Source of the DNA: Flavobacterium ginsengisoli
Lineage (GTDB): Bacteria > Bacteroidota > Bacteroidia > Flavobacteriales > Flavobacteriaceae
Length of the DNA stretch: 64,000 nucleotides
Assembly: GCF_029625315.1 (NCBI RefSeq)
Contig: NZ_CP121110.1
Span: 1,665,501-1,729,500 of the forward strand
Direction: 5' to 3'
Under the pieces are notes generated by a model. The model was not told where the DNA came from, searched no databases, and was given only the letters and a program-made list of their open reading frames with translations. The position numbers were made by a program, and so were the translations under genes. Below are positions 34,906 through 56,864 of the stretch, piece by piece (positions within the stretch are counted from its first letter, which is position 1; every line of letters begins with the position of its first letter).

Positions 34906-35329
34906 ATGGAAAATGTAAAAAGTTTGAATAAATGGGCAAATTCGCACACTTATTTACCAGTTGATTTAGTACGTATTGTTTTGGGTGGATTCTTATTTAT
35001 GAAAGGTGTCTCTTTCGTCACCAATATTCAATACCTGCATGATTTGATTTCCCCTATTGATAAGTATGGCGGAGGTATGTTTATGCTACATTACATTGCT
35101 CCAGCCCATATGATTGGTGGTATAATGATTATTTTTGGACTTTTAACCAGATGGGCTATTGCAAGCACAATTACCAATCTTATTTGGTGCAGTTCTCATT
35201 AACTTTATGGGAAAAATGCACTCTGAAAGTTTAGTTTTAGCATTAATCGTTTTATTTGTCTGCATCTTTTTCCTATTCTACGGAAGCGGTAAACACTCGG
35301 CAGATTACTATTTTAAAATGCAACAATAA
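34906..35329 (+). CDS. DoxX-family membrane protein, frameshifted
   Basis: 140 residues once one extra T at about 35181-35184 (CTTATTTGG for CTTATTGG) is removed. The frame then runs ITNLIGAVLINFMGKMHSES to a stop at 35329. It has four membrane helices (VDLVRIVLGGFLFMKGVSF, AHMIGGIMIIFGLL, then LVLALIVLFVCIFFLFYG). DoxX proteins are small membrane partners of quinone or thiol redox systems. Ends KHSADYYFKMQQ. Terminator follows. Confidence 0.75.
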
Positions 35330-36411: not shown

Positions 36412-36455
36412 ATGATATTTGTCATTTTATGTCTTCGCCTTAATCTTTAATTTTG
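36412..36455 (+). promoter_or_regulatory. FNR-like operator and promoter of hemN
   Basis: ATGATA-TT-TGTCAT at 36412-36425 fits ATGAYA-NN-TRTCAT. TAATTTTG at 36448-36455 fits the -7 consensus TAnnTTTG. The centre-to-centre distance is 33 bp, the same as before ccoS and ccoI. With transcription starting about 7 bp after the -7 centre, the operator centre is near -40, the class-II activator position. Confidence 0.75.
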
Positions 36456-36476
36456 ATATAAACTAAATCCGTTATT

Positions 36477-37843
36477 ATGAAAATTTCTTTGACTCAAAAG
36501 TACAATGTCCCAGGTCCAAGATATACTAGTTATCCAACGGTTCCATATTGGAATGAATCTGATTTTACTTCAGAAAAATGGATTACTACTTTACAAAAAT
36601 CATTCATAGAAAGCAATTCAAAGAACGGAATCAGTTTATATATCCACCTACCATTTTGCGAAAGCATGTGCACTTTCTGCGGATGCAACAAACGTATTAC
36701 CAAAAATCATTCAGTAGAAGAAAAATACATTCAGGCAGTTCTTAAAGAATGGAAAATGTATTGTGATTTACTTCCTGAAAAACCTGTAATTAAAGAAATA
36801 CATTTAGGCGGAGGAACGCCAACATTCTTCTCAAAAGAAAACCTGGAGAGCCTTATAAATGGGATTTTTAAGAATGCTGTAAAAGCAGACAAATCATGAA
36901 TTTAGTTTTGAAGGGCATCCAAATAACACAACATACGAACAGCTTAAAAAATTATATGATTTAGGCTTCCGCCGAGTAAGTTTTGGAGTTCAAGATTACT
37001 CTGCCACTGTTCAAAAAGCTATAAATAGAATTCAGCCATTTCACAATGTTGCTAAAGTGACTTTTTGGGCAAAAGAAATTGGTTATACTTCAATCGGACA
37101 TGATATTATCTTTGGACTTCCGTTTCAAACCATCGAAGATGTGATTGATACAGTAGAAAAAACAAATTCATTAAAACCTGATAGACTAGCATTTTACAGC
37201 TATGCACATGTGCCTTGGATAAAAGGAAACGGACAACGTGGTTTTAATGATGAAAATCTTCCAAAAGATTCTGAAAAGAGAAAATTATATGAAATAGGAA
37301 AAAAACTTCTAATTCAAAATGGTTATCATGAAATTGGCATGGATCATTTTGCATTAGAAGACGATAGTTTGTACAAAGTCAGCTCATAATAGAAAACTTC
37401 ATCGAAACTTTATGGGCTATAGCGCTTCTAAAACACAAGTTATGATTGGACTTGGCGTATCTTCTATTAGCGATAGCTGGTACAGTTTTGCACAAAATAC
37501 TAAAAGCCTTGAAGAATATTATGAAATTATAGAATCTGATAGACTTCCTGTTGTAAAAGGTCATATTTTGAACAATGAAGACCTTATCATTAGAAAACAT
37601 ATTCTGAACTTAACCTGCGAATTGGAAACATCCTGGACTGCAGAATCTTTAAACTTTGCTGAACTTCCTGAGGTTTTAATTGCTTTAAAAGAAATCGAAA
37701 ATGATAATTTAATTGTTATTAAAAACAACAAAATCAAAATTACAGAAGAAGGAAGACCTTTTGTACGTAATATTTGTATGGCTTTCGATTTGCATCTAAA
37801 AAGAAAGTCACCGGAAACAAATCTGTTTTCGATGACTGTATAA
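36477..37843 (+). CDS. hemN: Oxygen-independent coproporphyrinogen III oxidase, two frame breaks
   Basis: 454 residues after removing two extra bases: one A at about 36893-36895 (giving ADNHEFSFEGHP) and one T at about 37380 (giving LYKAAHNRKLHRNFMGY). Radical-SAM cluster motif CESMCTFCGC near residue 65, EIHLGGGTPTFF, FEGHPNN, RVSFGVQD, HDIIFGLPFQT, then the HemN C-terminal domain ending in MTV. It decarboxylates coproporphyrinogen III without oxygen in heme synthesis. Its length matches the usual 450-460. It faces the cbb3 operon and carries the FNR-like site upstream, consistent with heme supply at low oxygen. Confidence 0.9.
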
Positions 37844-37864
37844 AATCTTTTAAATATATTTCTC

Positions 37865-38567
37865 TTAGTGGCAGTTTGGAGTCTGCTGCACAAATAAACT
37901 CATGTTTGAAGGAGAAATATACGGAATTCCTAATCCTAGTCCTCTAAGGATAAATAAAACTCCAATGATAACTGCAACATAAGGAATTGCCTTTTGAATT
38001 TTATTTCGAAATGGCAATTTCAATAATGTATTGACATAAACCACAATAGTCATTAACGGAATTGTTCCTATTCCAAACAAAAGCATGTAAAGAACGCCAT
38101 AAGTGGCACTTTGCATAGCAATTGCCCCAAATAAAGCAACATAAACCATTCCGCATGGTAAAAATCCATTTAGAAGACCAATTGTAAAAAGAGATTTGTA
38201 GCTCTTATTTTTAAACTGACTTCCAAGATTGGCTTTAACTTTTGAAATGATTTTATAAACTGGTTTAGAAAAGTTGTATTGAGCAAATTTTTTCTCAGGA
38301 ATACAAACTACAATAATCATTATTACACCAATAATAATTGACATTTTCTGCTTGCAATCCTGCTAAGAAAAAGCCTCTTCCCAGTAATCCAAAAATCAAT
38401 CCGATTGTGGCGTAAGCTGTTAATCGACCAAAATGATAGGTCATAATCTGCGTTACCTTTTTAGCTTCATTTTGCCTGTCTACGGGAAGCATCATGGCAA
38501 TTGGCCCGCACATTCCAACACAATGCAGGCTGCTGATCAAACCTAAAAAGAAAGCTGAGAATAACAT
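37865..38567 (-). CDS. Sulfite exporter TauE/SafE-family (cbb3-associated) membrane protein, frameshifted
   Basis: 233 residues after one extra base at about 38351 is removed (giving AGLQQKMSIII). Six membrane helices. GLISSLHCVGMCGPIAMMLP at the start and NGFLPCGMVYVALFGAI in the second half are paired cysteine-containing helices, as in the small DsbD/CcdA-like SafE proteins that follow ccoGH. A role in copper or redox delivery to the oxidase is inferred from position. Last gene of the cbb3 operon; its end lies 21 bp from the converging hemN end. Confidence 0.8.
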
Positions 38568-38574
38568 TTTTGAT

Positions 38575-39025
38575 TTAGTTTACGTAAATAACTTCTTTAG
38601 TGAGATATTTTTTGCCTTCATACTGCCATTCCATATTCACATCCCAGCGTCCTTTTATTAATTTTTTCTGCGGAATAATGATTTCTGAATTAGTTAAGGC
38701 AATTTGAGTATTAAAGTCGAATTTTTTGTTTGAAGGTCTATATAATTGAATATTTCCTTTCACTTTACTGCTTTCAAATCCTACTGGAAAAATAACAGCG
38801 ACACCGTCTCCAGTATATTTTATTGATGGCTTATCGCTGCAAATCATGCGCATTTTGAATTCTCGCCATTTCTTCCTGAAAATGTGTATCATGTTTGTAA
38901 TATTCTTCGACAACCAAATCATTATCGTACTTAGAATTTGACTGCACTTCAAACACAAAATATAAAATAAAGGTCATAAACAATGCGAATGCAATGACGA
39001 TTCCAGTTCCCCAATTTAATTTCAT
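38575..39025 (-). CDS. FixH/CcoH family cbb3 oxidase assembly protein, frameshifted
   Basis: 149 residues if one extra base at 38836 is dropped (HDLQDKPSIKYT); a two-base loss is the alternative. One N-terminal membrane helix (WGTGIVIAFALFMTFILYFVF) precedes the conserved region EVQSNSKYDNDLVVEEYYKHDTHF and a periplasmic beta domain (VAVIFPVGF, NIQLYRPSNKKFD, ALTNSEIIIPQ, WDVNMEWQYEGK). FixH stabilises or assembles cbb3 oxidase. 12 bp downstream of ccoG and 7 bp before the SafE-type gene. Confidence 0.8.
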
Positions 39026-39037
39026 AATAGTATATTT

Positions 39038-40456
39038 TTAATTAAAACTTCGTGGTCCTAAGAAATTTGTAGTTGTTGTTTCCAGGAGTTCAGAACCATT
39101 GTAAACCCCTATTTTTACTTTTGTTTTATCACTTTCCAATAAAACTTCATCAATTTCAATGAATAATGTTCCTTGAGAAATTCCTTCTTTTGCAACTTTA
39201 AAATGTCTTTTTCCAACATTCTTAATTTCTCCTTTTTGATCGATTAATTCGAAATGAATATCATTGTAATCTTTCATTGTTTTGTTTACAATTTTATACG
39301 TGTAAACATTACTGATTTTTTCTCCATTATGCTGGAATAACTGACCTGGTAAACGTAAAACTACTGCTTGTACATCTGTTCTTAAAAACAGCATTCCAAC
39401 AAAAATACTCAATAAAATAAAGAGGACAGCTGTGTATCCTTTCATTCTTGAAGTAAATTTAAAAGGTTCTTTTTTGGCAATTTCATCTTCAGAAGCATAA
39501 CGAATAAGACCTTTTGGCAATCCTACTGATTCCATAATATGATCACATTCATCTATACAAGCTGTACAGTTGGTACATTCTAACTGTGTACCGTTTCGGA
39601 TGTCAATTCCCATAGGGCAAACGTGAACACATTGAAGACAATCTATACAATCTCCTTTTCCCGTTAATGCTCTATCTTCATTTTTTTTGAATTTTGCGCG
39701 TCCTTCTTCTTTTTCACCTCTAACAAAATCGTAGGCAACATTAATAGATTTATTGTCTAAAAGTACACCTTGCAATCTTCCATAAGGGCAAGCAATGATA
39801 CAAACCTGTTCACGAAACCATACAAAAACGAAATAGAAAATACCCGTAAATATAAGCAACGCGATAAAATTGCTAGCTTGTACAACTGGTCCTTGCTCAA
39901 TCATTAAGAATAAAGTATCACTACCTACTAGATAAGCCAAGAATATATTTGCTATAAGGAAAGAGATTAAAAAGAAAATAGTCCATTTGATTAGTCTTTT
40001 TCTAATTTTTTCACTATTCCATTCTTGCTTTGCTAAACGAGATTGTGCACCACGATCTCCATCAATCCAATATTCAATTCGACGGAAAACCATTTCAAGG
40101 AAAATAGTTTGCGGGCAGATCCAGCCACAAAATATTCTTCCGAAAACAACGGTAAATAAAATTATAAATACAACGCCAACAAGCATTGAGATTACGAAGA
40201 GATAAAAATCCTGTGGCCAAAAAGGAAATCCAAAAATATTAAAACGACGTTCCAAGATATTGAACATCATAAACTGGTTTCCATTTATTTTGATAAACGG
40301 ATTTATGAATAAAATTGCCAATAAAACGTAGCTGACAATTTTTCTATAATCATAAAATTTACCAGACGGTTTTTTAGGAAATATAAATTTTCGTTTGCCA
40401 CCTTCATCTATTGTTCCAATGGTATCTCTAAAAGCTTCGTCTGGTAAATTTGACAT
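39038..40456 (-). CDS. ccoG: Cytochrome c oxidase accessory protein CcoG
   Basis: 472 residues, intact. N-terminal membrane helices (YVLLAILFINPFIKINGN, then FGRIFCGWICPQTIFLEMVF with the conserved CGWICPQ). Two 4Fe-4S binding runs, GDCIDCLQCVHVCPMGIDI and CTNCTACIDECD. One more helix and a C-terminal immunoglobulin-like domain (FixG C-terminal). It reduces copper for cbb3 assembly. In the cbb3 operon between ccoP and fixH. Confidence 0.95.
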   Translation of the reverse strand: MSNLPDEAFRDTIGTIDEGGKRKFIFPKKPSGKFYDYRKIVSYVLLAILFINPFIKINGNQFMMFNILERRFNIFGFPFWPQDFYLFVISMLVGVVFIILFTVVFGRIFCGWICPQTIFLEMVFRRIEYWIDGDRGAQSRLAKQEWNSEKIRKRLIKWTIFFLISFLIANIFLAYLVGSDTLFLMIEQGPVVQASNFIALLIFTGIFYFVFVWFREQVCIIACPYGRLQGVLLDNKSINVAYDFVRGEKEEGRAKFKKNEDRALTGKGDCIDCLQCVHVCPMGIDIRNGTQLECTNCTACIDECDHIMESVGLPKGLIRYASEDEIAKKEPFKFTSRMKGYTAVLFILLSIFVGMLFLRTDVQAVVLRLPGQLFQHNGEKISNVYTYKIVNKTMKDYNDIHFELIDQKGEIKNVGKRHFKVAKEGISQGTLFIEIDEVLLESDKTKVKIGVYNGSELLETTTTNFLGPRSFN

Positions 40457-40466
40457 GATATTCTAA

Positions 40467-41404
40467 TTATTTTTTAACTTCTGTGGTATCTTTTGCAGTT
40501 GCAGCTGCATCGGTTTTAGGAGCGCTATCGTCTACCCAAACTTCTCCTTCTGGTTCTTTTGGATCTTTAGGATTGCTTCCTTGCAAAGACAAGATATAAC
40601 TTGCAACTTTTTGTATTTCTTTTGGTTTAAGGGTTCCTTTCCAGGCAATCATCCCTTTACCATCTCTACCTCCATTTGTAATGGTATGGAATAAGTTTTT
40701 AATTCCTCCTCCTAAAATCCATTTATCATCTGTAAGGTTTGGTCCAATCTGACCTCCTGCATCGGCACGGTGACAAGCTGCACAGTTTGTTGTAAAGATT
40801 TCTTTTCCTGCTTGCTAAACTTGGTTCGTCAGTTAATAAAACAACCGTTTTTTCGTCCATCAAATCTGGAGCAGTTTTCATATATTCTTCAACGTCAATT
40901 TTTGCCTGCGCCATTTCTTTCTTCAATTCCATTTCCTGATCATCCGCTCCTAAAACATCGTAACGAACTACATAAATAACTCCGAAAATGATACAGATGT
41001 AGAATAAATACACCCACCATGGTGGCAAATTATTATCCAACTCTTTGATTCCGTCATAATCATGATCCATCAATAAGTCGGCTTCTTTTTCAATTGGTTC
41101 TGTTTTAGTCAATTTGTGCATTAGGTTTTTTAAACCAAGTGCTTTCTTTGAAACTTAAACTTTCTTCAAGTTCTTTTTGCGCTTTTTCTTCTGGCGATAG
41201 CAATTGATACATCACTCTATTTACAGCACTAAGTGTAATTTCGATGGCAATCAGAATAAACAAAAAGACAAATAAAAAGAGCGAAACCATAGGGAATTTT
41301 ACAAAAGCTGGCTTATCGCCTGAGTCTATAAAATATTCCATCAAAGCAAATACGATGAAGAAAATCAACGGTACTCTAACATATACTGGGAAAAACTTTT
41401 TCAT
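40467..41404 (-). CDS. ccoP: cbb3 oxidase subunit CcoP (membrane-anchored cytochrome c), two frame breaks
   Basis: About 311 residues after two extra bases are removed. One is in the T6 run at 41126-41131, which joins STWFKNLMHKLTKTEPIEKE. The other is at about 40809, which restores EPSLAAGKEIFTTNCAACH. Two N-terminal helices (PVYVRVPLIFFIVFALMEYF and VSLFLFVFLFILIAIEITL) are followed by the FixP_N region DYDGIKELDNNLPPWWVYLFY with one helix, and one heme-c motif CAACH with the methionine side in the C-terminal half. Many Bacteroidetes CcoP proteins have this extended N-terminus. Ends in an Ala/Lys/Asp-rich tail. Confidence 0.85.
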
Positions 41405-41406
41405 TT

Positions 41407-41601
41407 TTATCTATCTTTTGTGATTACACTAAGTCCTTCATCTAAAGGTATATTACTCATTTCTTGAATTTTTTCTTTTCTATAAGAGAATACCCAAATA
41501 CCTAATCCTACAAAAAAGAAGAAGAAAATCAAGAGGGAAATAATCGGGTATAATTCTACACCCGATATTGTTTCCATATTGTGTTTTATTTGTTCAAACA
41601 T
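41407..41601 (-). CDS. ccoQ: Small cbb3 oxidase subunit CcoQ/FixQ-like
   Basis: 64 residues, one membrane helix (YPIISLLIFFFFFVGLGIWVF) followed by a basic stretch YRKEKIQEM, as in CcoQ. Located between ccoNO and ccoP with gaps of a few bases. Stabilises the complex in other bacteria. Confidence 0.8.
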   Translation of the reverse strand: MFEQIKHNMETISGVELYPIISLLIFFFFFVGLGIWVFSYRKEKIQEMSNIPLDEGLSVITKDR

Positions 41602-41608
41602 AATGCTG

Positions 41609-43792
41609 TTATTTAGTTTCTTTTACTTTAATATCAGTACCAAGTCTTTGAATATAAGCAATCAAAGCAACGATTTCTCTTTCATCCATCGGAATGAATT
41701 TCTCACCTTTTGCGACAGCTTTTTTGCGGCTGTCTTCATAACTCTTAACAAAATCAGGATCGCTTTCTAAGCTTTTTTCTATCTTAACTGCCTGCTCTCT
41801 TAAAGTTTTTTGTGCATTAGCAACTTCTTCTGGAGAATATGGCACACCTAATGAAATCATTGCCTGCATTTTCTTTTGCGTCAATGAAATGTCCATTGGT
41901 TTATTATCAAATAACCACTTATATCCTGGCATAATTGATCCTGCAGATGTACTTTGCGGGTTCCACATGTGGTTAAAGTGCCAATTGTCATTATACTTAC
42001 CACCTACTCTTAATAAATCTGGACCTGTACGTTTTGATCCCCATAAGAATGGATGGTCGTAAACAAACTCTCCTGCTTTTGATTGAACTCCGTAACGTTC
42101 AACCTCACTTCTAAATGGACGAACTGACTGTGAATGACATCCAACACAACCTTCTCTGATATATAAATCACGTCCTTCAAGCTCTAAAGGTGTGTATGGT
42201 TTTACACTTGAAATAGTTGGTATATTTGATTTTACCATTATTGTTGGCACAATCTGAATAATACCTCCAATTAAAATTGCAATAGTTGCTAAAATGGTTA
42301 ACTGAATTGGTTTTCTTTCTAACCATGAGTGGAATTTCTCTCCACTTAATCTACTGCTTTTTATTGTTTGTAAAGCTGGAGCCTGAGCCAATTCATCTTC
42401 AATTGCATTACCCGCTTTTACTGTCATGATAATGTTGTAAACTAATGTCAACATACCTATTAAGTAAAGAGACCCTCCGATAGCTCTCATCCAATACATT
42501 GGCATAATCGCTGTAACTGTTTCTAGGAAGTTACCATAAGTTAAAGTTCCGTCTGGGTTAAATTGTTTCCACATAGACGCTTGTTGGAAACCAGCCACAT
42601 ATAATGGAATTGTATAAACGATAATACCTAAAGTTCCAATCCAGAAATGGAAATTTGCCAATTTCTTAGAGAATAATTCTGATTTTGTCATTCTTGGAAT
42701 TAACCAATAAATAATACCAAATGACATGAAACCATTCCAAGCTAAAGCTCCTACGTGTACGTGTGCTACGATCCAGTCTGTGTAGTGCGCAATAGCATTT
42801 ACATTTTTTAAAGATAACATCGGACCTTCAAAAGTCGCCATACCGTAACCAGTAATCGCTACAACGAAGAATTTTAAAACTGGTTCTTCACGAACTTTAT
42901 CCCAAGCTCCTCTTAATGTTAAAAGACCATTGATCATACCTCCCCAAGATGGCGCAATTAACATTACTGAGAATGCAACCCCAAGATTCTGAGCCCAGTT
43001 TGGCAATGCAGAATATAATAAGTGGTGTGGTCCTGCCCAGATATAGATAAAGATTAAAGACCAAAAGTGAATAATAGATAATCTATATGAGTAAACAGGT
43101 CTGTTTGCAATTTTTGGAACGAAATAATACATTAATCCCAAGAATGGAGTTGTAAGGAAGAATGCCACCGCATTGTGTCCATACCACCATTGCACTAGGG
43201 CATCCTGAACACCTGCATACACAGAGTAGCTTTTTAAAGCAGAAACCGGAATTTCGATGTTGTTAAAGATATGCAGTACGGCTACCGTTACAAATGTTGC
43301 TAAGTAAAACCAGATTGCAACATATAAGTGACGCTCTCTACGACGGAGCATTGTACCAATCATATTGATACCCATAACAACCCAAATTAAAGCAATTGCA
43401 ATGTCAATTGGCCACTCTAGCTCTGCATATTCTTTAGAAGAAGTATAACCTAACGGAAGTGTAATTGCTGCGGCTACAATAATTAACTGCCATCCCCAGA
43501 AATGAAGGTTACTTAAAAAATCACTAAACATTCTGGCTTTTAGCAATCTTTGCAGCGAGTAGTACATACCGGCGAAAAATGCATTACCCACAAAGGCAAA
43601 AATAACTGCATTAGTGTGCAATGGTCTTAATCGGCCGTAACTCAGCCACGAAATCCCATCTGTCATGTTGGGAAAAAGGTACATTACCGCTAAGGTAAGT
43701 CCCACTAACATACCCACAACTCCAAAAAGTATTGTGGCGTAAATGAATTTTTTTACAATTTTGTTGTCGTAATAAAACTGTTCCATTTCCAT
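41609..43792 (-). CDS. ccoN: Fused cbb3 oxidase subunit CcoN-CcoO
   Basis: 727 residues, intact. Residues 1-480 are CcoN with 12 or more helices: RPLHTNAVIFAF (heme b ligand), WWYGHNAVAFFLTTPFLG (CuB histidines), GPHHLLYSALP, and HVHVGALAWNGF (histidines of the binuclear centre). A linker then leads to CcoO from about residue 500: one helix, PLELEGRDLYIREGCVGCHSQ (heme c), RTGPDLLRVGG, and SIMPGYKWLF (methionine ligand). The C-terminus is VALIAYIQRLGTD. The fusion of N and O is usual in Bacteroidetes. Catalyses oxygen reduction at low oxygen tension. Confidence 0.95.
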   Translation of the reverse strand: MEMEQFYYDNKIVKKFIYATILFGVVGMLVGLTLAVMYLFPNMTDGISWLSYGRLRPLHTNAVIFAFVGNAFFAGMYYSLQRLLKARMFSDFLSNLHFWGWQLIIVAAAITLPLGYTSSKEYAELEWPIDIAIALIWVVMGINMIGTMLRRRERHLYVAIWFYLATFVTVAVLHIFNNIEIPVSALKSYSVYAGVQDALVQWWYGHNAVAFFLTTPFLGLMYYFVPKIANRPVYSYRLSIIHFWSLIFIYIWAGPHHLLYSALPNWAQNLGVAFSVMLIAPSWGGMINGLLTLRGAWDKVREEPVLKFFVVAITGYGMATFEGPMLSLKNVNAIAHYTDWIVAHVHVGALAWNGFMSFGIIYWLIPRMTKSELFSKKLANFHFWIGTLGIIVYTIPLYVAGFQQASMWKQFNPDGTLTYGNFLETVTAIMPMYWMRAIGGSLYLIGMLTLVYNIIMTVKAGNAIEDELAQAPALQTIKSSRLSGEKFHSWLERKPIQLTILATIAILIGGIIQIVPTIMVKSNIPTISSVKPYTPLELEGRDLYIREGCVGCHSQSVRPFRSEVERYGVQSKAGEFVYDHPFLWGSKRTGPDLLRVGGKYNDNWHFNHMWNPQSTSAGSIMPGYKWLFDNKPMDISLTQKKMQAMISLGVPYSPEEVANAQKTLREQAVKIEKSLESDPDFVKSYEDSRKKAVAKGEKFIPMDEREIVALIAYIQRLGTDIKVKETK

Positions 43793-43794
43793 AA

Positions 43795-43986
43795 TTATAC
43801 TTGTTTTTCTTCGATTGGTGAATTATTATTTTGGGAATTAATTTTGGTTTCGTCATCAAAAAGAATTCTGACTGAGGGGGTATAATCATCATCGTATTGC
43901 CCAGTTTTGACAGCCACGATAAAGGCAATAAAGAAACAGATTGCCACAAAAATACTTACTGAAATTAATAGATAAATAACACTCAT
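43795..43986 (-). CDS. ccoS: cbb3 oxidase assembly protein CcoS
   Basis: 63 residues. A start of the form MSVIYLLISVSIFVAICFF gives one membrane helix, then VKTGQYDDDYTPSVRILFDDE, the conserved CcoS patch (Q-Y-D-D-x-x-x-P). Needed for cofactor insertion in the oxidase. First gene of the operon, 2 bp before ccoNO. An FNR-like site and a TAATTTTG box are upstream. Confidence 0.92.
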   Translation of the reverse strand: MSVIYLLISVSIFVAICFFIAFIVAVKTGQYDDDYTPSVRILFDDETKINSQNNNSPIEEKQV

Positions 43987-44004
43987 ACCTTAGATTTATA
44001 TTAA

Positions 44005-44049
44005 CAAAATTACTTCGTTAAGGGCGCATAAAATATGATAATTATCATA
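44005..44049 (-). promoter_or_regulatory. FNR-like operator and promoter of the ccoS-ccoNO operon
   Basis: The perfect 16-bp palindrome TATGATAATTATCATA at 44034-44049 contains ATGATA-AT-TATCAT. On the - strand TAATTTTG at 44005-44012 matches the -7 consensus. Centre distance 33 bp; the ccoS start is 19 bp further. Same geometry as hemN and ccoI. Confidence 0.8.
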
Positions 44050-44101
44050 GAGAAAAAGAATATGTTAAATTTAATAAAATATATTCTTTAATAATTTATA
44101 A

Positions 44102-46489
44102 TCATTCTAAATTTCTGTTACTGAAATAGTTAGACATAAAAGTAACAAAACTTACAATCGTAATCGTGCTCAATGGCATGATGATAGCGACAACTAACGG
44201 AAGCAGGTTTCCTGTGACCGCAAATGCAAGTCCAATAACGTTGTACAGCAATGACAAGCCAAAACTCATTTTTATAATCGAAATTGCTTTATGTGAAAGC
44301 TTCAAAAAGTAATTGAGACGTGAAAACTCCGATGCATCAAGAATTGCATCACATGCAGGAGAAAAAACGTTCACATTTTCAGAAATAGAAATCCCGACAT
44401 TACTTTGTGCCAATGCTCCCGCATCATTTAACCCATCACCAACCATCATTACATTTTGTCCTTTTTCTTGAAGTTTCTTTATGTATTCAAGTTTTTGCTC
44501 TGGTTTTTGATTGAATATCAACTCAGTACCTTTTGGCAGAATGGCTTCTAAGTTTGCCCTTTCGCCATCATTGTCACCAGAAAGTACTTTAATTTGATAC
44601 TCTTTACTCAAGTTTGCAAAAAGTTTTTCTAGGCCTTCGCGATATTGATTCTGGAAAGTATATTTTCCAAAATAGATCTCTCCTATTTTAATATGTAATG
44701 CCGTTTTTTCAATTTCTGAACCATCTGCAACTATATCATTTACAAATTGTCCAGAACCAATTTTAATTTCTTTTCCCTCAATAGTTGCTAAAATCCCCTT
44801 ACCTGTAATTTCCTGAAATTCTTCTATAGCAATACGCTTGGCATCTGGCAGAAAATCGTAAAGCATTCGGCTTAATGGGTGGTTTGAACCACGCAATACG
44901 CTCTTAATCAATACAACATCTGAATCTAAAATAGGTTTTCCTTCATATACTATATTCGATTTTTTGTTGGTAGTAATTGTTCCTGTTTTATCAAAAACAA
45001 TCGTATCAACTTTTGCGAGCTGCTCGATTACAATGGCATTTTTTAAATAAAATTTCTTTTTACCTAAAATTCGCAATACGTTTCCAAAAGTAAACGGAGC
45101 AGTAAGCGCCAACGCGCAAGGACAAGCTACGATTAGCACCGCCGTAAAAACATTAAAAGCTGTATTAGCATCTATAAAAATCCAATAACCAAAACCAGCA
45201 AATGCAATGAGCAATAATATGGGGGTAAAATATCGGCTTATTGCATCTGTTATGGTTTTGTGTTTCTGATCTACTTTTTTCTGAAAAATTTCGTTACTCC
45301 ATAACTGCGTCAAATAACTCTGTGAAACTGAATGCAATACTTCCATTTCTATTACTTTCCCAATCTGTTTTCCTCCCGCAAATACTTTATCACCAGATTT
45401 TTTAGTAATTGGAACAGCTTCTCCTGTAACGAAACTATAATCTATCTCTGCACTTTCACTAATTAAAATTCCATCTACAGGAATAAGTTCTTGATTTCTA
45501 ATCAACAATCGATCTCCTTTCAAAACATCATAAATAGCAACATTATCTTCAGATGCATCTTTATTAATTTTAGTAACAGCAATCGGGAAATAGGATTTAA
45601 AATCTCTTTCAAAGCTTAGGAAACTATAGGTTTTAGTTTGAAACATTTTACCAAGAAGCATAAAAAATACTAAACTCGCTAAACTGTCAAAAAAACCGGG
45701 ACCGTGATCCATTAGCATATCATAAGTACTGCGAATAAACATCACGATAATACCTAATGCAATCGGAATATCAATGTTAAGCATTCTGGTTCTAATACTG
45801 TGGTGAGCAGAAATATAATATCCGCTTGCTGAATATAAGAAACTTGGCAATGCTAAAAGAAAAATCAGTAATCTGAAAAACGGTTTGTAACTATCCAACC
45901 AGAATTCTTTCATTTCGAAATATTCTGGAAATGAAAGCAACATAATATTTCCGAAACAAAAGAATGCAACGCCTAATTTATAGGTTAAACTTCGGTCTAC
46001 TTTTACTTCTGCTGTTCCATAATTTTCTAAACTAATATAAGGCTCATAACCTATTGAGTTTAAAAGATATGCAATTTCTTTTAAAGAAACCACATCAGAA
46101 TTGAAGGTAATTCTAACCTTTTTTTCGTGGAAATTAACTTGAGATATACTTATTCCAGGCTGAAGACGATTTAGATTTTCTAGAATCCAGATACAAGAAC
46201 TGCAGTGAATATGTGGAATATTCAGCGAAACAATTGACGTGTTCCCTTCCTGAAATTCTAAAACCTTTGCGAGTATGGTTTCATTTTCTAAAAAATCATA
46301 TTTTCCTTTGATGTCTTGCGGTGTGGCTCCCGGAGACTTTTCAAAATCATAATAAGATGTTAGGTCATTGATGCTGAAAATTTCGTAAACTGTTTTACAG
46401 CCTGTGCAACAAAACTTCTTATCATCAAAATCAATTTCTTCATTTTGTTCAATAGTTAAACCACAATGAAAACAACTTTGCTCCCTCAT
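44102..46489 (-). CDS. ccoI: Copper-exporting P1B-type ATPase CcoI/FixI
   Basis: 795 residues from ATG 46489 (MREQSCFHCG); 14 more residues upstream are possible. N-terminal cysteine region CFHCG with CCTGCKTVYEIF, then an HMA domain with IHCSSCIWILENL. Eight helices with VACPCALALTAPF (copper-binding CPC), TGEAVPI, DKTGTIT (phosphorylated aspartate), GSNHPLSR (HP motif) and MVGDGLNDAGALAQSNVGI. Delivers copper out of the cytoplasm for cbb3 assembly. It lies just upstream of ccoS but is separated by the ccoS promoter, and shares the FNR-like signal at 46540. Confidence 0.93.
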   Translation of the reverse strand: MREQSCFHCGLTIEQNEEIDFDDKKFCCTGCKTVYEIFSINDLTSYYDFEKSPGATPQDIKGKYDFLENETILAKVLEFQEGNTSIVSLNIPHIHCSSCIWILENLNRLQPGISISQVNFHEKKVRITFNSDVVSLKEIAYLLNSIGYEPYISLENYGTAEVKVDRSLTYKLGVAFFCFGNIMLLSFPEYFEMKEFWLDSYKPFFRLLIFLLALPSFLYSASGYYISAHHSIRTRMLNIDIPIALGIIVMFIRSTYDMLMDHGPGFFDSLASLVFFMLLGKMFQTKTYSFLSFERDFKSYFPIAVTKINKDASEDNVAIYDVLKGDRLLIRNQELIPVDGILISESAEIDYSFVTGEAVPITKKSGDKVFAGGKQIGKVIEMEVLHSVSQSYLTQLWSNEIFQKKVDQKHKTITDAISRYFTPILLLIAFAGFGYWIFIDANTAFNVFTAVLIVACPCALALTAPFTFGNVLRILGKKKFYLKNAIVIEQLAKVDTIVFDKTGTITTNKKSNIVYEGKPILDSDVVLIKSVLRGSNHPLSRMLYDFLPDAKRIAIEEFQEITGKGILATIEGKEIKIGSGQFVNDIVADGSEIEKTALHIKIGEIYFGKYTFQNQYREGLEKLFANLSKEYQIKVLSGDNDGERANLEAILPKGTELIFNQKPEQKLEYIKKLQEKGQNVMMVGDGLNDAGALAQSNVGISISENVNVFSPACDAILDASEFSRLNYFLKLSHKAISIIKMSFGLSLLYNVIGLAFAVTGNLLPLVVAIIMPLSTITIVSFVTFMSNYFSNRNLE

Positions 46490-46509
46490 AAACTTGTTTT
46501 TATATGCCA

Positions 46510-46553
46510 CAAATTTCCAATTAAAGCACAATTATTAAGATGATAATTGTCAT
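46510..46553 (-). promoter_or_regulatory. FNR-like operator and promoter of ccoI
   Basis: ATGATA-AT-TGTCAT at 46540-46553 fits ATGAYA-NN-TRTCAT (read on either strand). On the - strand GAAATTTG at 46510-46517, a one-mismatch TAnnTTTG, has its centre 33 bp away. The ccoI start is about 21 bp past the box. The divergent Crp/Fnr gene begins 139 bp on the other side. Confidence 0.75.
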
Positions 46554-46665
46554 GTAATCTTGAAATTGAATTCTAATTTAATAAAATAAAACAGTCTAAA
46601 TTAAGCTCTACCGTAATTTATTATATTTTTACCATATAATAGTCAATTATACCCTTAAATATCCT

Positions 46666-46673
46666 TATTTTTG
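46666..46673 (+). promoter_or_regulatory. -7 element TATTTTTG of the Crp/Fnr gene
   Basis: TATTTTTG fits TAnnTTTG 18 bp before the ATG at 46692. Confidence 0.5.
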
Positions 46674-46691
46674 CTGCAAACAAATATTGTC

Positions 46692-47375
46692 ATGAATAAA
46701 TGTGATCAATGCATTGTACGCCAGCTAAGCTCATTAAAAGCCCTTAACAAAGAAGAAGTTATAAAATTAGCCAGCAGTAAAACCTCTTACAAGATTAAAA
46801 AAGGTGAAGCCATTTTTGAAGAAGGCGAAGTAACCAATGGGGTTTTTTGTATAAAAGATGGTGTTGGTAAACTTTCAAAATTGAGTGCAAACGGAAAAGA
46901 TCAAATTGTAAAATTGGTAAAATCTGGAGAACTTCTTGGACAACGCTCTATGATTAGTAATGAGCCGGCAAACTTGACTGCAAAAGCAATTGCCGACATG
47001 GAAGTTTGTTTTATTCCTAAAACCGAAATCATCAATTTTTTTAATAATAACAATCAGTTTTCTTTAAATCTGATGCAATCTGTATGTGAAGATTTGAAAG
47101 AATCTGAGAATGAAAAAATTGCCTTAGTTCAAAAAACAGTTAAGCAGAGACTTGCTGAAACTTTATTGCAACTGCATGATGAATTTGGAGAAGATACCGA
47201 CAAAACCCTTAAAGTTCAACTAACAAGAGAAGAACTTGCGGGCATCATTGGTACCGCAACAGAAAGCTGCATTCGTTTATTATCTGATTTTAATAAATTA
47301 GGATTAATAGAATTAGTCGGCAAAAAAATTATGCTTAAAGATGTTCGTGCTTTAAAAAAATTAGCCGATAACTAA
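46692..47375 (+). CDS. Crp/Fnr-family regulator, probable oxygen/redox regulator of cbb3 genes
   Basis: 227 residues from ATG 46692 (MNKCDQCIVRQLSSL). The N-terminal cysteines in NKCDQC, with another at CIKDG, recall FNR but are not the exact four-cysteine pattern of enteric FNR. The effector barrel spans 35-120 (IFEEGEVTNGVFCIKDGVGKLSK, GELLGQRSMISNEPANLTAKAI). A dimer helix and an Fnr-type HTH follow (LTREELAGIIGTATESCIRLLSDFNKLGLIEL, with E..SC.R in the recognition helix). Divergent from ccoI. I infer that it binds ATGAYA-NN-TRTCAT. Its end overlaps the converging mazG end by 4 bp. Confidence 0.85.
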   Translation: MNKCDQCIVRQLSSLKALNKEEVIKLASSKTSYKIKKGEAIFEEGEVTNGVFCIKDGVGKLSKLSANGKDQIVKLVKSGELLGQRSMISNEPANLTAKAIADMEVCFIPKTEIINFFNNNNQFSLNLMQSVCEDLKESENEKIALVQKTVKQRLAETLLQLHDEFGEDTDKTLKVQLTREELAGIIGTATESCIRLLSDFNKLGLIELVGKKIMLKDVRALKKLADN

Positions 47376-56014: not shown

Positions 56015-56647
56015 TTATCTTCCGAACAATCGGCCGAAAAAACCTCTGTGTTCTTCCTCTTCTCCTGCATCCTCTTCTTCTGAGTAATTAGCAAACTTAG
56101 ATTGCGATTTTTCATGTTCGTAAATCAACTCCTTAATATATTCAACGTAAGTTCTCTTTTTCTCTTCTAAGAAACCAATTAAGTACTTTTCGCTAAATTC
56201 TACTCCACTTGCTGCTTCAATCTGCAACAACTTTTTGTACAAAGGCTCAATATGCATCGCAATTACTTCTTGCGGTACAGCCTGTCTTCTTCCGAAATAA
56301 TTTACAATAACATCGTTTTCGTCGCGGGCAATTTCAAAATCTGTAATTACCCAATAGTATCTTCCAGACTTTGCAAGGTTTTTTACAATAGCATGAAAGT
56401 TTTTCCCGTTTTTAAGATTCTCCCAAAGCACTTTAAAAATAACTTTTGGCATATCCGGGTGGCGTATGATATTATGAGGCTGGCCCATTAATTCATAATC
56501 TTCGTAACCACAAACGTCTACAAATACTTCGTTGGCGTATTCTATAATTCCGTATGCGTTTGTTTTACTCATAATAACCTGAGTTTTATCCCAGCTTACT
56601 TCTTTGTCAATGATTACTCTGTTTTGAAGGTGATTTTCTTGATTCAT
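56015..56647 (-). CDS. PAS-domain sensor protein (Aer-type PAS)
   Basis: 210 residues. Residues 20-125 form a PAS domain of the Aer type: MSKTNAYGIIEYANEVFVDVCGY, then LMGQPHNIIRHPDMPKVIFKVLWENLKNGKNFHAIVKNL and RYYWVITDFEI. In Aer-like proteins the H-N-I-I-R-H-P-D-M-P run contacts FAD, so redox sensing is likely. A helical region follows, and an acidic tail ending GFFGRLFGR. There is no HAMP, kinase or MCP domain, so the output is unknown. Confidence 0.8.
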   Translation of the reverse strand: MNQENHLQNRVIIDKEVSWDKTQVIMSKTNAYGIIEYANEVFVDVCGYEDYELMGQPHNIIRHPDMPKVIFKVLWENLKNGKNFHAIVKNLAKSGRYYWVITDFEIARDENDVIVNYFGRRQAVPQEVIAMHIEPLYKKLLQIEAASGVEFSEKYLIGFLEEKKRTYVEYIKELIYEHEKSQSKFANYSEEEDAGEEEEHRGFFGRLFGR

Positions 56648-56864
56648 ATTTTACTGCTTATATGATTATTTATGGAATGGAATGTTGATCAACACTGCGA
56701 AATTAAAGCGAAGAAAAAGTACAAATCCTGACTTTTGTCATATTTTGATATAAAAAAAACTTTTAGCAGTAACGGTATTAATTAAAAACATATACAGCCT
56801 TTCTGATTTTACAAATAAGAAACAAAAAGTTAAATATGTAACATTTTCAAACCGTTTTGCTTTT

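Follow-up and report, generated by a model that had tools for sequence, protein, structure and literature searches.

The stretch analysed here, called the window below, comprises 64,000 nucleotides of the Flavobacterium ginsengisoli genome (contig NZ_CP121110.1, positions 1,665,501 to 1,729,500 of the forward strand). It carries hemN, for an oxygen-independent coproporphyrinogen III oxidase; ccoS, the first gene of a cbb3 oxidase operon; ccoI, for a heavy-metal P-type ATPase of cbb3 assembly; and, divergent from ccoI and next to it, a gene for a Crp/Fnr-family regulator, referred to below by its first position as the 46692 protein. Each of hemN, ccoS and ccoI is preceded by the same operator, ATGAYANNTRTCAT, and by a TAnnTTTG-type −7 promoter box. 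We propose that the three promoters are part of a conserved low-oxygen regulon under a class II activator of the Crp/Fnr family, most likely the 46692 protein.

A motif scan of the window finds the operator as an exact match at all three genes, the one before ccoS extending to the palindrome TATGATAATTATCATA. The operator-to-box gap is 22 bp on the strand of the gene, and the two centres lie 33 bp apart at 3/3 promoters. An earlier note, made from the letters of the window, had given the same operator positions and the same distance on the gene strand, and both are borne out. Its gene identities hold by profile models as well (the name ccoI is based on such models and on the position beside ccoS), as does its placing of a Crp/Fnr gene beside ccoI.

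It is the shared spacing, rather than the number of operators, that is informative. With at most one mismatch to the operator, the window gives 3 matches, all exact, against a shuffle mean of 0.96, and 9 of 100 shuffled windows reach three. In the whole genome, a single contig of 5,414,540 bases, exact operators number 9, compared with 6 for a reversed control pattern. Operator counting as sole proof was rejected on these figures, and the count alone is weak evidence. By contrast, random triples drawn upstream of open reading frames (ORFs) of the window share a spacing in only 1.5e-5 of 200,000 draws, the criterion being one common gap in the range 8 to 38, two boxes scoring 6/6 and a third scoring 5/6 or better. 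Three equal distances are indeed hard to explain by chance, as the earlier note had held; spacing and conservation carry the case.

In Escherichia coli, CRP and FNR bind at −41.5 when acting as class II activators. To place the operators on this scale we used the −7 elements of F. johnsoniae, which are described as spanning T−12 to G−5 (PMC6847099), and the sigma-A boxes of F. psychrophilum, placed at −12 to −5 (PMC9723704). This puts the centre of the box at −8.5 and that of the operator, 33 bp further upstream, at −41.5, a figure which assumes that the start sites of these two species carry over to this strain. The three promoters of the window therefore have their operators at the class II position, at a fixed distance that is conserved in relatives; the earlier 'near −40' stands as regards the class and is refined to −41.5. 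Among 239 distinct promoters with a 22-bp gap, TTG occurs 17 to 19 bases from the TA of the box in 4 and at 16 or 20 bases in 21 more, and a T-tract follows the operator on its 3′ side. Since F. johnsoniae promoters generally show little −33 motif (PMC6847099), the absence of a −33 element is weak evidence.

Several comparisons show that the arrangement extends across the Flavobacteriaceae. We scanned 120 genomes of the family, from 119 genera, for exact operators that have TAnnTTTG downstream, accepting every gap between 8 and 38. The pattern is present in 84 of the 120, compared with 6 matches of the reversed control over all 120, and the gap is exactly 22 in 117 of the 150 matches listed (there are at least 150 in all); the next commonest gap, 23, occurs 7 times. 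A second set, 80 loci retrieved through the regulator and titled Flavobacterium or, in a few cases, Flavobacteriaceae bacterium or [Flexibacter] (the named loci; 1.64 Mb), contains 157 exact operators, all at the ccoS or ccoI position, and 0 reversed controls. Sites of other genera are often ATGACATATGTCAT-like and keep TGAY-N4-RTCA. Beyond the family, a sample of the phylum (198 genomes, own family included) has the exact pattern in 35, with 5 gap-22 matches outside the family among the matches listed. One other family, f21, has orthologues of the regulator and gap-22 matches in 3/3 genomes; another, f23, has orthologues and a single match, at a gap other than 22.

The same spacing is found when the search starts from proteins rather than from the motif. 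For hemN, 44 genomes gave a match and 30 loci were retained, one of them from the query's own genome and originally fetched for its site; a TGA-N6-TCA core with its best box at gap 22 precedes 27 of the 30, 25 of these with a 6/6 box, and the other three lack the core. In other genera the core precedes ccoS in 43/44 loci, with the best box at gap 22 in 42/43, and ccoI in 46/49, with gap 22 in 42/46, a count that may include fragments or other ATPases; score ties between boxes were resolved to the gap nearest 22 in the hemN, ccoS and ccoI counts. All 80 named loci have the core at ccoS. Genes internal to the operon lack a site (ccoNO 0/43, ccoG 0/36). In a neighbourhood control, a site at gap 22 stands before 39/49 ccoI, 42/44 ccoS and 9/46 FNR genes, and before 66 of 509 'other' genes, where any other gap occurs at most 7 times; these 509 are not a clean background, for many of the loci were fetched for their sites and they include one large cluster resembling universal stress proteins.

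The ccoI promoter has a feature of its own. Its box, GAAATTTG, lacks the first T, and so do those of 41/46 other-genus and 79/79 named-locus ccoI promoters with the best box at gap 21–23 (T in 5/46 and 0/79), compared with a first T in 43/43 other-genus and 80/80 named-locus ccoS boxes. On these counts, GAAATTTG is not a slip of a single strain and a T-less −7 box is kept at ccoI; it may keep expression of the assembly ATPase lower and dependent on the activator.

Two kinds of regulator accompany the pattern. With cut-offs that we set at 205 bits for orthologues of the 46692 protein (FNR orthologues below) and E ≤ 1e-50 for a fusion of response regulator, cNMP-binding and HTH_Crp domains, the former are found in 75 and the latter in 60 of the 120 family genomes. 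The pattern, at gaps of 8 to 38, is present in 34/42 genomes with the FNR orthologue only, 19/27 with the fusion only, 29/33 with both and 2/18 with neither, that is, in 82/102 with either regulator versus 2/18 without (Fisher 2.4e-8, relatedness ignored). The fusion lies 3′ of a PAS histidine kinase in the loci that were read, and at the cut-off used it has no match in the F. ginsengisoli genome. It accompanies or replaces the FNR-like protein in many genera, and in genera without the FNR orthologue it may read the same box. One locus, L157:6810-9103, has a PAS histidine kinase ahead of such a fusion, in the vicinity of cco genes. A FixL-type heme PAS domain in the partner kinase was considered and is not claimed, the heme histidine being seemingly absent by eye against a FixL sequence.

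Within the F. ginsengisoli genome the 46692 gene is the best candidate because it is divergent from ccoI, because the fusion is unmatched there and because the type of a further paralogue, L121, is present in only 22 of 120 genomes. Its position divergent from and next to ccoI recurs in most other-genus loci examined. On these grounds the 46692 protein is the likeliest regulator of the sites, which it would bind and at which it would respond to oxygen.

The Crp/Fnr fold of the protein is secure. Its cNMP-binding beta-roll and Crp-type helix-turn-helix match PF00027 and PF13545 above cut-off and match the fold of Aliivibrio fischeri FNR (5e44); fold comparison of an AlphaFold2 model (mean predicted local distance difference test score 79.1, with 65 and 59 for the first two ten-residue blocks; predicted template modelling score 0.61) confirms it. 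The NCBI CRP model reaches 51.2 bits against a cut-off of 266. We aligned 141 distinct orthologues, 74 from the query and the named loci and 67 from genomes of the family scan (at least one of the same genus), leaving out those below 195 bits. Cys4, Cys7, Cys53 and Cys106 are invariant in 141/141. Three of them, Cys4, Cys7 and Cys106, correspond in the alignment to C20, C23 and C122 of FNR; at the C29 position all 141 have Ser, Thr or Asn. Of 14 distant relatives, drawn from further families within the order, the class and the phylum, 13 keep the four cysteines, and a cysteine at the C29 position is missing from all 14. Four invariant cysteines, one of them relocated, suggest a rewired iron–sulfur site, a cluster with a different third ligand. 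FNR has the recognition helix E..SR and reads TTGAT with it. In the helix of the 46692 protein, ESCIR, Glu191 and Arg195 are conserved in at least 97% of the 141, and Ile stands where FNR has Ser; TGAY is retained in the operator, whose outer base is mostly A or C.

The targets reach well past the three promoters of the window. We fetched 80 further loci for their gap-22 matches, of which 6 have no downstream ORF and 16 precede hemN, judged by N-termini; other target groups were tested by profile on representatives only, the remainder being assigned by eye from N-termini. A first profile test named 9 of 10 representatives in relatives: phosphate acetyltransferase, pyruvate formate-lyase, phosphoenolpyruvate carboxykinase, methylmalonyl-CoA epimerase, pyruvate phosphate dikinase, glutamyl-tRNA reductase, citrate synthase, 2-oxoacid:acceptor oxidoreductase and copper nitrite reductase. 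The remaining representative, which resembles HPF by eye, matched nothing at the cut-off applied. In a second test 9 of 10 had a Pfam match, the PAS-domain protein of the window among them; the others were FeoA, molybdopterin oxidoreductase, universal stress protein, cytochrome c, pyridine-nucleotide reductase, thioredoxin, a 4Fe-4S protein and a rhodanese/metallo-beta-lactamase protein, and the representative from L217 had none. Of the further gene clusters that carry the site in the fetched neighbourhoods, that of a universal-stress-protein-like gene near the cco genes is the largest (42 genes in 33 loci). A protein of more than 500 aa, open at the end of the fetched sequence, stands behind a site in four genera (L217, L226, L288, L291), its sameness being judged by eye.

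In the F. ginsengisoli genome itself, 8 places have at most one mismatch to operator plus box. Three of them are those of the window, and two more precede a nirK-like multicopper oxidase/cytochrome c gene (L014) and a YceI-like gene (L015). A limit of two mismatches adds L023 (a further YceI-like gene) and L024 (pyridine-nucleotide reductase), these two assigned by eye, as well as L025, for a CBS protein, and L026, for a ferrochelatase. At up to three mismatches there are 87 matches versus 44 controls, and single near-matches are therefore candidates only. The 'three-promoter regulon' of the earlier note is right in its low-oxygen targets hemN, ccoS and ccoI and too small in its number of promoters. 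Exact operators also stand before the genes for type II NADH dehydrogenase (NDH-2) and cydA, with no box at gap 22 (L001:1501-1514, L008:1501-1514); a different mode, for example repression, is possible there. In F. psychrophilum under oxygen limitation the cbb3 oxidase is reported as strongly up and heme-synthesis enzymes as up, and the term 'crp' is absent from the main text of that paper (PMC9723704).

In the mechanism that we propose, a dimeric Crp/Fnr activator, most likely the product of 46692-47375, would bind the palindrome [AC]TGAYANNTRTCAT centred at −41.5, contact RNA polymerase from there in the class II manner and aid the Bacteroidota sigma-A holoenzyme at TAnnTTTG. Falling oxygen, presumably sensed through an iron–sulfur cluster, would turn on the cbb3 oxidase operon (ccoS-ccoNO and following genes), the copper ATPase ccoI and oxygen-independent heme synthesis by hemN. 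The fixed family-wide spacing, the low-oxygen targets and the co-occurrence with a Crp/Fnr gene beside ccoI support the FNR-like class II low-oxygen regulon that the earlier note had suggested, and we put the probability of a conserved regulon of this kind, with the 46692 protein as its most likely activator, at roughly 0.82.

A number of observations weigh against this reading. The operator motif alone is not enriched in the F. ginsengisoli genome, and 3 of the 8 places at one mismatch or less (L012, L016, L017) precede genes with no evident low-oxygen role. The spacing is not absolute: the best box lies at gap 23 in 30 of the 80 named loci with a core at ccoI, and in other genera at 21 in three and at 23 in one of the 46 ccoI promoters (4/46) and at 23 in one ccoS promoter, with the rule for ties favouring 22 throughout. 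Nor is the pattern complete where a regulator is present, with only the 34/42 and 19/27 given above for one regulator alone. It is missing in its exact form from 12 of the 75 FNR-positive genomes; of these 12, 8 were examined and show, at an unchanged gap before ccoS, a variant site such as CTGACAAAAGTCAT, one of the eight variant loci being identified by listing order and score. As to the protein, the canonical FNR ligand set (Cx2Cx5C plus a beta-roll Cys) is not found, the third cysteine being absent; the score against the NCBI Fnr model is 81.3 bits, with a cut-off of 228; and one distant relative, L353, has a similar recognition helix and none of the four cysteines.

The alternative that deserves most attention keeps the regulon and changes the activator: another Crp/Fnr-type protein, L121 in this genome and the response-regulator/CRP fusion elsewhere, would read the sites, and the 46692 protein would be secondary. 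This genome does have 7 HTH_Crp_2 matches, 5 of them over cut-off. L121 (G000:C1:5200782; L121:1036-1740) has a clustered-cysteine N-terminus, Cx2Cx4C, a cysteine aligned with C122 of FNR, and a comparable helix that ends in EQAIR; the helix of a fusion, ESLIR in L157, resembles ESCIR, and the pattern is found in most genomes that have the fusion only. Against this, L121-type proteins reach E ≤ 1e-35 in 22 of 120 genomes (one of these a weak match on an FNR orthologue), compared with 75 that have a 46692 orthologue and 84 that have the pattern; the fusion is unmatched in this genome, and it is the 46692 gene that adjoins ccoI, divergently, here and in most other-genus loci. We consider this exchange of activators unlikely.

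More distant still is the idea that another kind of regulator, such as a Fur-like metal repressor, reads the palindrome, with the spacing reflecting repression over the core promoter. The ccoS core ATGATAATTATCAT resembles what we take to be part of a Fur box, the AT-rich ccoS palindrome looks Fur-like to the eye, and a FeoA gene lies 3′ of one site (L280). The TGAY-N4-RTCA form of many other-genus sites is not Fur-box-like, and a constant placing at −41.5 fits an activator. Low-oxygen functions make up many of the targets, and of the 18 genomes with neither Crp/Fnr regulator 16 lack the pattern; a repressor of this kind seems very improbable. That the three promoters merely share an AT-rich coincidence agrees with operator counts near the chance level in window and genome, and is hardly credible given the same 22-bp gap at 27/30 protein-found hemN promoters and 42/43 other-genus ccoS core sites. 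A conserved regulon under a Crp/Fnr-family activator of class II, most probably the 46692 protein, is the account that we retain.

Table 1. Genes, operators and −7 boxes of the window
Feature	Position	Strand	Basis or remark
FNR-type operator ATGATATTTGTCAT before hemN	36412..36425	+	exact motif match
−7 box TAATTTTG of the hemN promoter	36448..36455	+	22 bp 3′ of the operator
hemN, oxygen-independent coproporphyrinogen III oxidase, broken into three frames	36477..37843	+	TIGR00538 on first and last piece
ccoNO fusion, cbb3 oxidase subunits I/II, 3′ of ccoS	41609..43792	−	PRK14485
ccoS, first gene of the cbb3 oxidase operon	43795..43986	−	PF03597, TIGR00847
−7 box TAATTTTG of the ccoS promoter	44005..44012	−	
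Operator before ccoS, core ATGATAATTATCAT, perfect 16-bp palindrome	44034..44049	−	exact match 44035-44048
ccoI-type heavy-metal P-type ATPase of cbb3 assembly	44102..46489	−	PF12156, heavy-metal P-type ATPase models
−7 box GAAATTTG of the ccoI promoter	46510..46517	−	
Operator before ccoI, in the divergent ccoI / crp-fnr intergenic region	46540..46553	−	exact match
Crp/Fnr-family regulator, 227 aa, proposed activator	46692..47375	+	cNMP_binding (PF00027), HTH_Crp_2 (PF13545)
PAS-domain protein, 210 aa, 3′ of the degenerate fourth site	56015..56647	−	Pfam match
−7 box TAATTTCG, 22 bp from the degenerate fourth operator	56698..56705	−	
Degenerate fourth operator ATGACAAAAGTCAG	56728..56741	−	

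Two features of the window call for comment. The earlier note had seen no fourth site by eye, which is correct for sites with at most one mismatch in the scan of the window; a degenerate one, ATGACAAAAGTCAG, 22 bp and TAATTTCG, with 3 mismatches in total, lies on the minus strand before the PAS-domain gene (56741-56698). Its operator core recurs in 17/17 named loci where the PAS gene was found (17 of 80 loci searched), and this conservation is weak evidence, because the 17 loci are close relatives. The hemN gene is broken into pieces at 36477-36899, 37057-37389 and 37412-37843; in relatives hemN is a single frame of about 453 aa, and a search of this genome with a relative's hemN (E ≤ 1e-80) gave no match. 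Genes near hemN also look split by eye (40467-41121 and 34906-35329). Assembly indels are likelier than a real loss.

Beyond the regulon itself, an older history may be sketched, tentatively and at a little below even odds: an ancient Bacteroidota branch of FNR that would sense oxygen with Cys4, Cys7, Cys106 and the beta-strand Cys53, the last standing in for the third N-terminal cysteine of FNR, control a cbb3, heme and fermentation regulon from a rigid −41.5 site, and share its operator with the response-regulator fusion, or yield it to the fusion, in many genera. Flavobacteria are abundant in soil and water. With the operator defined and its spacing exact, the regulon can be predicted from one genus to the next and tested in F. 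johnsoniae, and the four invariant cysteines turn a different way of holding an oxygen-sensing cluster into a claim that can be checked.

An FNR-like class II regulon is of a known kind. A search of the open-access literature, with most subscription journals outside its scope, found no description of this regulon, of the cysteine arrangement or of a promoter-level low-oxygen switch in flavobacteria. The variant described here, with Bacteroidota sigma-A, a conserved −41.5 spacing, a relocated cysteine and exchange with a response-regulator fusion, appears to be undescribed in the literature that could be searched. One paper predicted that a Flavobacteriales Crp/Fnr homologue, which may or may not correspond to the 46692 orthologue, responds to carbon and not to oxygen (PMC8510549).

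Compared with FNR of E. coli and A. fischeri (5e44), the 46692 family has Ser, Asn or Thr in place of C29 and an extra invariant cysteine, Cys53, in the beta-roll; the outer base of its proposed operator is mostly A or C, not T, and it would serve TAnnTTTG promoters. In Proteobacteria, FixK/FixK2 and the FnrN/ANR-type regulators are Crp/Fnr activators of the cbb3 oxidase, its assembly genes and hemN, and FixK is not known to have the cluster cysteines. The 46692 protein scores 68 and 64 bits against the FixK and FnrL equivalog models, below the cut-off of 300 for each. The Crp/Fnr protein 2gau of Porphyromonas gingivalis matches it from position 35, leaving the CxxC region unmatched, and has Tyr and Leu at the residues aligned with Cys53 and Cys106. 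The response-regulator/Crp fusion (Response_reg, cNMP_binding and HTH_Crp_2) shares the latter two domains and a similar recognition helix with the 46692 protein, stands beside cco genes in several loci and occurs with the same operator; it differs in that a receiver domain and a partner PAS histidine kinase replace the cysteine N-terminus.

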